64,000 bases of DNA from Candidatus Saccharimonadota bacterium (GTDB taxonomy: Bacteria > Patescibacteriota > Saccharimonadia > Saccharimonadales > Saccharimonadaceae). The DNA lies in contig JAFWIU010000010.1 in assembly GCA_017514765.1 (NCBI GenBank), positions 62,001 through 126,000 of the forward strand. Reading direction: 5' to 3'. This document shows, piece after piece, positions 7,913 to 40,620 of this stretch. Numbering within the stretch: position 1 is the stretch's first letter; every line of letters starts with the position of its first letter. A program made the translations under genes and the position numbers. A model generated the notes under the pieces. That model saw only the letters and a list, made by a program, of their open reading frames with translations. It was not told where the DNA came from and ran no database searches.

Positions 7913-7937
7913 TTCGCCGAGCGCAGCTCGGAACAAA

Positions 7938-7983
7938 GGCGAAAATGGGCTTGCGGTGCGGGGGTCGCAAGCCCATTTTCGCC
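7938..7983 (+). repeat. Long perfect hairpin with G-rich loop (copy A)
   Basis: Two 18-base arms (7938-7955 and 7966-7983) are perfectly complementary. They enclose a loop closed by a G-T pair that contains TGCGGGGG. There is no T run after it, so it is not a simple terminator. It lies in the intergenic stretch after tRNA-Leu. The intergene 7866-8302 otherwise holds only smaller hairpins (CCGAGC-GCA-GCTCGG at 7917-7931, GCGC-TTTC-GCGC near 8016-8027). Confidence 0.85.
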
Positions 7984-8120
7984 ATTATCCCAAGCTTCGC
8001 TTAGCAATAAAAAAACGCGCTTTCGCGCGAAGATCCTAATTTTTGTTCCGTAATGGTGCGATTATATGATATCGCTAGAACCTATTTTAGCGCAAATAAT
8101 AAATAAGAATTCAGCAAAGG

Positions 8121-8162
8121 GAGCTTTTAGCGGGCTGAAGGGGGCAGCCCGCGTAAAAGCTC
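8121..8162 (+). repeat. Long hairpin with G-rich loop (copy B)
   Basis: A 17-base left arm, GAGCTTTTAGCGGGCTG, pairs with 8145-8162 with one bulged C. The loop is AAGGGGG. The architecture is like copies A, D and E: an outer A/T run, an inner GC-rich block and a G-run loop. The stem sequence is unrelated to the others. Confidence 0.8.
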
Positions 8163-8177
8163 TCTTGCGACAAAGTC

Positions 8178-11103: not shown

Positions 11104-11139
11104 TTTCTGGCGGGGCGGGCGGGGGCGCCCCGCCAGAAA
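11104..11139 (+). repeat. Perfect hairpin with GGCGGGGG loop (copy D)
   Basis: 14-base arms, TTTCTGGCGGGGCG and its exact complement, enclose the eight-base loop GGCGGGGG (11118-11125). The intergene 10966-11368 holds this element, copy E and two terminators, with no gene seen. Confidence 0.88.
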
Positions 11140-11155
11140 GCGACTTCGGATTCAA

Positions 11156-11196
11156 GGATTTTCGCAGGCTGGGCGGGGGGCAGCCTGCGAAAATCC
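11156..11196 (+). repeat. Perfect hairpin with GGCGGGGGG loop (copy E)
   Basis: 16-base arms, GGATTTTCGCAGGCTG and its exact complement, enclose the loop GGCGGGGGG (11172-11180). The loop is nearly identical to copy D, but the stem is different. Confidence 0.88.
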
Positions 11197-39102: not shown

Positions 39103-40620
39103 ATGTTACTGGAAGATTATCGAAACGAAAGACTTAAAAAACTAGAGGAAATACGGGGGAGAGGCATAGAACCATATCCTTCCACTACGGAACGTAATAC
39201 TAAAATTGCTGACGTAGTGAATCATTTTGATGAGAAACAAGGTCAAGAGGTCTGCGTAGCGGGACGGATTGTAGCGATTCGCTCGTTTGGTAAATTAGTG
39301 TTTATTAAACTACGCGATTATACGGGAGAAGTGCAGATATTCATGAAACAACAAGCGAATTCTGACCACTCCGTTCCCCTCGGACACGCTCAAGGCCGCT
39401 CGGCCGAGCCTATGGTTCTCGGGGAAGGAGTGGCTCAGAATTCTCTTGGTATAAAGGATGTCAAACTCCTCGATACCGGTGATTTTATTGAGGCGACTGG
39501 TGTGGTAGATAAATCCCAAACGGGCGAGATTTCAGTGTTCACCGATCACATTAGACTGCTCACCAAATCGCTACGACCCTTACCGGAGAAGTTTACCAAT
39601 AAGGAAGAGCGATATCGCCGGCGCTATGTTGATATGAATGTGAACCCCGAAGTGCGCGAGAGGCTCGTAAGAAGGTCTAAATTCTGGCAGGCGACGCGCG
39701 ATTTTATGAACTCGCATGGGTTTATCGAGATTAATATTCCGGTACTAGAACATACCACTGGTGGAGCGGATGCGCAACCGTTCGTGACGCACATGAATGC
39801 CCTAGACGAGGATTATTATTTACGGATTTCACACGAGTTACCTTTGAAGCGATTGCTTGGTGGCGGATTTGAGAAAGTATACGATATTGGACCGCGATTC
39901 CGCAATGAGGGAGTCGACGATGAGCATTTGCCAGAGCATATTGCGTTTGAGGCCTACGCGGCATATGAGAATTACGAGGACGGCATGAAGCTTTACGAGG
40001 AAATGATTAAGTACGTTGCCAAAGAGACTTGGGGAACTTTGAAGTTTAATGTGGGTGGATTCGAGATTGACCTAGATTGTGAGTGGCCACGCTATAAGTA
40101 CGCGGATTTGTTGTCCGAGAGGTTTGGCGTGGATGTATTTAATCCAGACAGAGAACAGTTGATTCGGATTTTGAAGGAGAACGGTGTGGAGTCGAACTTC
40201 GACATGACAACGCCGCATCTAATTGATCATGTCTGGAAGCTGATTCGGAAGACTTCGGCTGGGCCTTACTGGGTGATCGAAGAGCCATTATCATTATCGC
40301 CGCTCGCAAAGAAGTCGTCCGGCAACCCATTGGTGACGGAACGATTCCATCCGATTATTGCGGGAACTGAGATGGGGAACGGATTCTCGGAGTTAAATGA
40401 CCCGCTCGACCAGTTGGCGCGATTCCAAGAGCAACAAGCGGCGCGCGATGCGGGTGATGAAGAGGCACAGATGCTCGACATGGATTTCGTAGAGATGCTA
40501 GAATACGGCATGCCGCCAGCGTGTGGCTGGGGTAATTCGGAGCGAAACTTCTGGCTACTCGAGGGAGTGTCAGGACGCGAAGCAGTGCCGTTCCCGTTGA
40601 TTAAAAGTCGAGAAGATTAA
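39103..40620 (+). CDS. lysS: Lysyl-tRNA synthetase, class II
   Basis: 505 residues. OB-fold anticodon-binding domain at about 45-170 (VAGRIVAIRSFGKLVFIKLRD, RLLTKSLRPLPEK), then class II motifs 1-3: FIEINIPVLEHTTGGADAQPF, DIGPRFRNEGVDDEHLPEH and the C-terminal GWGNSERNFWLLEGVSGREAVPFPLIK. Residues about 86-113 are an inserted peptide (SDHSVPLGHAQG ... GEGVAQNS) encoded by an 87-bp palindromic element and fall in a surface loop of the OB fold. The last four bases overlap the stop of the converging DUF167 gene. Confidence 0.97.
   Translation: MLLEDYRNERLKKLEEIRGRGIEPYPSTTERNTKIADVVNHFDEKQGQEVCVAGRIVAIRSFGKLVFIKLRDYTGEVQIFMKQQANSDHSVPLGHAQGRSAEPMVLGEGVAQNSLGIKDVKLLDTGDFIEATGVVDKSQTGEISVFTDHIRLLTKSLRPLPEKFTNKEERYRRRYVDMNVNPEVRERLVRRSKFWQATRDFMNSHGFIEINIPVLEHTTGGADAQPFVTHMNALDEDYYLRISHELPLKRLLGGGFEKVYDIGPRFRNEGVDDEHLPEHIAFEAYAAYENYEDGMKLYEEMIKYVAKETWGTLKFNVGGFEIDLDCEWPRYKYADLLSERFGVDVFNPDREQLIRILKENGVESNFDMTTPHLIDHVWKLIRKTSAGPYWVIEEPLSLSPLAKKSSGNPLVTERFHPIIAGTEMGNGFSELNDPLDQLARFQEQQAARDAGDEEAQMLDMDFVEMLEYGMPPACGWGNSERNFWLLEGVSGREAVPFPLIKSRED
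39357..39443 (+). repeat. 87-bp in-frame palindromic element inside lysS
   Basis: Both ends carry GAATTC with matching flanks (GAATTCTGA-CCACTCC at the left, GGAGTGGCTCAGAATTC at the right). Arms pair through CCACTCC, TTCCCC and GAG blocks to a perfect 12-bp core, GCTCGGCCGAGC, at 39398-39409. 87 is a multiple of three, so the frame is preserved. Base composition is GC-rich relative to the gene. Confidence 0.82.

Follow-up and report, generated by a model that had tools for sequence, protein, structure and literature searches.

The lysyl-tRNA synthetase gene (lysS) analyzed in this work carries an in-frame palindrome, and this insert belongs to a family of tiny palindromic elements that are translated and that occur in the Saccharibacteria genus Nanosyncoccus and in several Bifidobacterium species. 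In the reading that we favor, with moderate confidence, the mobile part of this Nanosyncoccus element family is a tip of 37 nt, and the stem of about 25 bp that supports it would be partly built from the target by snap-back or template-switch synthesis. A stricter formulation, according to which the 37-nt tip alone is heritable, the stem is made de novo at each target by a fold-back reaction with a ruler of about 25 nt, and the copies in Saccharibacteria and Bifidobacterium are connected by horizontal transfer, is put forward only tentatively.

The window, that is the whole stretch of 64,000 nt that was analyzed, comes from a gut Saccharibacterium genome of 0.70 Mb with a completeness of 99%. 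The features relevant to the element are the following:

39103..40620, + strand: lysS, the host gene, encoding a lysyl-tRNA synthetase of 505 aa (ORF list, Pfam and LysS matches in the PDB)
39357..39443, + strand: palindromic element of 87 bp, in frame in lysS (fold z, inverted repeat and absence from 14 orthologs)
39357..39381, + strand: 25-nt left arm, specific to this locus (aligned with the sister insertion L131/L126)
39382..39418, + strand: conserved core, 37 nt, the sole part common to different loci (19 aligned copies and GTDB scan)
39398..39409, + strand: GCTCGGCCGAGC, self-complementary centre that forms the apical loop and the 3' strands of two helices (sequence and fold)
39419..39443, + strand: right arm, 25 nt, which pairs with the left arm leaving single-base bulges (fold and inverted repeat)

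The first-pass annotation had described an 87-bp palindrome that keeps the frame of lysS, and the sequence bears this out: the 87 nt begin and end with GAATTC, GCTCGGCCGAGC is located at the expected centre, and the reading frame of the 505-aa ORF continues through the element. The palindrome is imperfect, with a layout of 25 nt (arm), 37 nt (core) and 25 nt (arm), and its predicted folding energy is -57.8 kcal/mol versus a mean of -31.7 for shuffled sequences (z = -7.75; 0 of 200 shuffles). In the core, GGAC pairs with GTTC at the base, followed by GCTC with GAGC, and by GGCC with GGCC closing a GCTC tip.

LysS shows the Pfam domains tRNA-synt_2 (E 7.8e-65) and the OB-fold tRNA_anti-codon (E 1.2e-13), and the peptide predicted from the insert is QQANSDHSVPLGHAQGR. 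In a structure predicted from eight sequences, which is confident for the N-terminal OB domain only, the insert (residues 86-111) has a pLDDT of about 25, as a disordered loop, and is located between an OB strand (76-82) and a helix (117-122). At this loop the relative of known structure 3a74 has around 9 residues where the LysS of the window has around 35. The proposal that the insert sits in a tolerant OB-fold loop is therefore upheld, and in the predicted model the palindrome occupies a permissive, disordered loop of this domain.

When the LysS loop was compared at 20 loci of the same genus, 14 orthologs were found to be empty, with the conserved anchors 30-33 nt apart, and the other six showed 99-120 nt; hence, the segment is not conserved in all LysS proteins. 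The lysS of the window has 99 nt between these anchors, thus its net gain with respect to the 14 empty orthologs is 66-69 nt (22-23 codons) and not 87 nt, and it follows that 18-21 nt of the palindrome correspond to loop length that existed previously. The length of 29 codons given earlier is accordingly right for the palindrome and too large for what LysS gained. Empty orthologous sites were also found in many sister genomes for rluB, tsaD, obgE, leuS and tgt.

Further copies of the element had been expected in related genomes, and there are many in sister species; the genome of the window itself has a single copy of this core family. A BLAST search gave 33 matches, including the window copy, in 13 of 60 sampled genomes, every one of the same genus, and no match in 24 sampled genomes of other genera. 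A scan of GTDB with the core pattern yielded at least 100 stretches, mostly from ruminant-gut Saccharibacteria, plus Bifidobacterium; among the matches listed there are B. callitrichos, B. rousetti, B. santillanense and B. platyrrhinorum, and also one Bifidobacteriaceae MAG. From 19 aligned copies a covariance model of the core (R1) was obtained with 12 pairs, 4 of which show compensatory changes (0 of 500 shuffles). With this model, whose match counts are to be read as minima, matches were found in Nanosyncoccus alone among 132 genera of the order, with at least 16 in the richest 0.7-Mb genome, in 1 of 209 genera of a phylum sample, and in 0 of 117 further genomes that sample the class of Bifidobacterium; in four element-bearing Bifidobacterium genomes there are at least 13-56 matches each. 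No match was detected in phage records searched with the element, in viral contigs searched with the core pattern, or in plasmids searched with the core. In agreement with the earlier remark that no such family was described for this lineage, no paper in the open-access literature was found to describe the element for Saccharibacteria or Bifidobacterium, and an Rfam search of the window returned tRNAs only.

About 70 of 110 copies are in frame within long ORFs, in which the core is read mostly as EDRKLGRAPLSVSE (34 copies), SDTLKGARPSLRSS (23) or GHAQGRSPKLTVL (11). Long ORFs are weak evidence of genes in the GC-rich Bifidobacterium, and for this reason our statements on the frame are based on the hotspot genes of Saccharibacteria (lysS, rluB, tsaD, obgE, leuS and tgt), where all 43 occupied copies keep a single ORF. 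The same hotspot loops have been struck independently, in differing orientations, and also by other core families. In the genome of the window there are in-frame palindromes of other families in rluB (L166, G000:C6:55771-56508), tsaD (L172) and leuS (L283), at hotspot loops that are also used in sister species. Additional core families, with apices such as CCCGTNNNNACGGG and CCCTGTGGCGACAGGG, occur in these rluB, obgE and leuS loops (L154, L167, L268-L270, L281-L287), and one tsaD (L047) apparently carries two palindromic insertions in two different loops.

Conservation between copies is confined to the 37-nt core. Each locus has its own pair of arms, which are complementary to each other and unrelated to those of other loci: arm complementarity is far above the null obtained from unrelated loci out to approximately 25-30 nt and then drops to this null, and arm identity is the same within a genome as between genomes, with a value of around 0.28 beyond 15 nt from the core. 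The median position at which the arms end is 25 nt in each of the two phyla; 0 of 99 copies have less than 10 bp of arm. Some pairs, such as L019/L025 and L063/L096, do share their arms within a genome, from which we conclude that whole elements sometimes move. The idea that the inner arm is common within a genome while the outer arm differs was discarded, given that it holds for a few pairs (L016/L029) and not generally.

Pairing of the arms is kept between sister insertions. The only other LysS with the insertion of the window copy is L131, and the changes that distinguish the left arms are compensated in the right arms; in total, 2 pairs have changed on both sides among the lysS sister insertions, and among those of rluB 5 pairs have changed on both sides and 0 on one side only. 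This pattern is compatible both with selection on the stem and with homogenisation of the arms by template switching (PMC8794818, PMC8604942).

The origin of the arms was approached through the length of the 43 occupied copies in the six hotspot genes, whatever their core family. In these copies the palindrome is longer than the DNA added with respect to the empty orthologs, with a median excess of 27 nt, approximately one arm, and the difference is positive in 37 of the 43 copies, although some values are inflated or negative where the fold was over- or under-extended. In the tightest loops, with clean folds, the excess is +22 to +32 nt for lysS and mostly +19 to +25 nt for obgE. The excess could instead reflect loop residues that were deleted at insertion. 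We conclude that the palindrome is not equivalent to the inserted DNA, and that about one arm length is native or was copied from native sequence.

At several loci, one arm includes in its outer part an exact inverted copy of the flank (L173, L179, L267, L269, L020, L026). In tsaD, the left arms of L173 and L179 contain 11-nt inverted copies of the codons that each genome uses for the conserved FPLL; the copy in L173, AATAGAGGGAA, is matched equally well by 0 of 19 other genomes, and that in L179, AGTAATGGAAA, by 1 of 19. The obgE copies L267 (N. alces) and L269 have 8-nt inverted copies of their own ADL codons, AAATCGGC and AAATCAGC, for which 1 and 5 of 15 other genomes, respectively, match equally well. 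The intergenic copy L020 could be compared with the empty sites L222, L223 and L240; here the native sequence is GTTACTT, and the inverted copy AAGTAAC is present at the outer left arm. L026 presents an equivalent picture from the opposite side, with a poorer alignment, and there the inner arm is not native. No direct target-site duplication, of the kind that flanks the terminal inverted repeats of a MITE, was seen at L020, the one clean empty site at the DNA level. Summed over the 43 hotspot copies, the test for copies of own codons was not significant (p about 0.09), therefore the claim of flank copying is limited to the loci listed and to the length argument; most arms, the two of the window copy among them, are in unconserved loop sequence, which is beyond the reach of a test for native origin.

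The arms of Bifidobacterium have a near-constant length of 25 nt, are positionally conserved in part, and are bounded by GNCCG...CTCNGTT, so that they look more like those of a conventional palindromic element; the spacers that contain them are too diverged for an empty-site comparison. Head-to-head pairs of cores separated by 100-200 bp, each with its own arms, were observed at L204, L211, L213, L218 and L219.

This positional conservation, together with the compensatory changes between sister insertions and the arms common to L063/L096 and L019/L025, speaks for an RPE- or MITE-like element of conventional type, in which the whole 87-bp palindrome inserts and its arms diverge fast while pairing is preserved by compensation or homogenisation. 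Nonetheless, arms are unrelated even within one genome despite near-identical cores, the palindrome is longer than the added DNA, and there are exact flank copies at the loci listed above; we judge this explanation to be somewhat unlikely. It could also be proposed that the tip inserts alone and that the flanks are afterwards turned into arms through quasi-palindrome mutation by template switching. This process is known to generate hairpins and to perfect them (PMC8794818, PMC8604942), and flank copies are present in the arms at some loci; however, core-only copies are absent (0 of 99), and arm length, instead of being spread from near zero, has the same median of 25 nt in the two phyla, which makes this proposal quite improbable.

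According to the reading that we favor, what spreads is the self-complementary tip of 37 nt, which ends up on top of a site-specific stem of about 25 bp. Insertion would add the tip and an inverted copy of the neighbouring DNA, so that one arm would consist mostly of sequence already present at the site and the other would be its reverse complement. The route is most likely an event of the replication or repair type: a strand end beside the target would acquire the tip, the tip would fold back on itself, which is natural given that the core is palindromic, its 3' end would prime synthesis on its own flank for around 20-30 nt, and the end would then rejoin the target. Either flank may serve as the copied side, and selection would retain only the in-frame events in surface loops. 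We infer the snap-back synthesis, as well as the origin of the limit of about 25 nt and of the tip itself, and the copy of the window would presumably have arisen by this route.

Regarding the enzymes that could be involved, the RAYT/Y1 transposase (PF01797) was found in 0 of 14 element-bearing genomes, and the control genomes were positive. The domain RVT_1 was detected in 8 of these 14 genomes and is absent from the genome of the window; reverse transcriptases were rejected as mobilisers, since they are present in some genomes, look mostly like DGR enzymes, and are not correlated with the element. In the set L241-L256, where this type predominates, a 0.7-Mb genome can carry as many as four RT genes; in L252 the RT gene adjoins a gene for a variable-protein-like product, and similar RTs occur in two Bifidobacterium genomes.

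The first-pass annotation had likened the insert to the Rickettsia palindromic elements (RPE). RPE and the coding palindromes of Wolbachia and Methanocaldococcus are on the 100-bp scale, are found in frame in conserved genes and also in spacers, and are tolerated in loops; one gene may have different families at nearby positions (PMC2229807, PMC3767692), and RPE families have been found by their own sequence with HMM (PMC3767692). The likeness holds in that the element is a repeated palindrome, in frame in conserved genes, with empty orthologous sites. It breaks down in that, in comparison with RPE as they are described, only the 37-nt tip is common to the copies, the arms are site-specific and at some loci partly copied from the target, and the lineage is different. 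Given that arm conservation was not found, the element was not classified as an RPE.

Other systems share some of these characteristics. Template-switch or quasi-palindrome mutations produce reverse-complement copies of adjacent DNA that result in hairpins and in multi-base compensatory changes (PMC8794818, PMC8604942), but they have no dispersed conserved tip, whereas here a specific 37-nt sequence is present at every apex. In mitochondria of Nematomorpha, long locus-specific inverted repeats are found in essential coding genes, and template switching has been suggested (PMC6649704). These palindromes and the element described here both have locus-specific stems; nonetheless, those of Nematomorpha are perfect, reach 284 bp, both of their arms code for conserved protein, and no conserved mobile apex has been described for them. 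Like REP/BIME, the element consists of short hairpins that are sometimes in head-to-head pairs (the Bifidobacterium copies); unlike them, it is found without Y1/RAYT in 14 genomes and is often inside genes in Saccharibacteria, and no GTAG or CGTC tag of the REP type was recognised by eye.

A hairpin that selection maintains for an RNA or regulatory function, such as a processing site, a translational bypass or an attenuator, and not a selfish sequence, would account for the stable and covarying structure. This is very improbable, because the element is patchy at each site, appears in both orientations and in unrelated essential genes, and several core families use the same loop; moreover, the frame of the host genes is kept, therefore a translational bypass is not needed. 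An artefact of assembly or amplification, that is chimeric inverted sequence in metagenome-assembled genomes, from which the majority of loci come, can be practically dismissed by the insertions shared between independent assemblies (L018/L101; L131/L132; L151/L152), the tip conserved among copies, the open frames, and the copies in genomes of named Bifidobacterium strains.

Should the stem be built from the target, this DNA would spread in a manner different from the cut-and-paste or copy-and-paste of an element already complete. It would leave behind a signature, a constant tip on a site-specific stem, which escapes ordinary repeat finders. In-frame selfish palindromes are also present in the reduced genomes of Patescibacteria, where the loops repeatedly struck are those of aminoacyl-tRNA synthetases, ObgE, TsaD and RluB. 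The tip is near-identical in Saccharibacteria and Bifidobacterium, and this similarity of sequence suggests that DNA may have been exchanged between Patescibacteria and Actinomycetota. The known Saccharibacteria epibionts have hosts in the phylum Actinomycetota, and such an exchange could give a hint about the hosts of the rumen Nanosyncoccus.

The bulges of the lysS element caused it to be overlooked in an ungapped hairpin scan of the window. The window also contains four spacer hairpins, at 7937-7983, 8119-8164, 11104-11139 and 11156-11196, which have near-perfect, unrelated arms of 13-19 bp and similar G-rich loops, e.g. GGGCGGGGGGC, and are possibly another family with a constant loop and variable arms.
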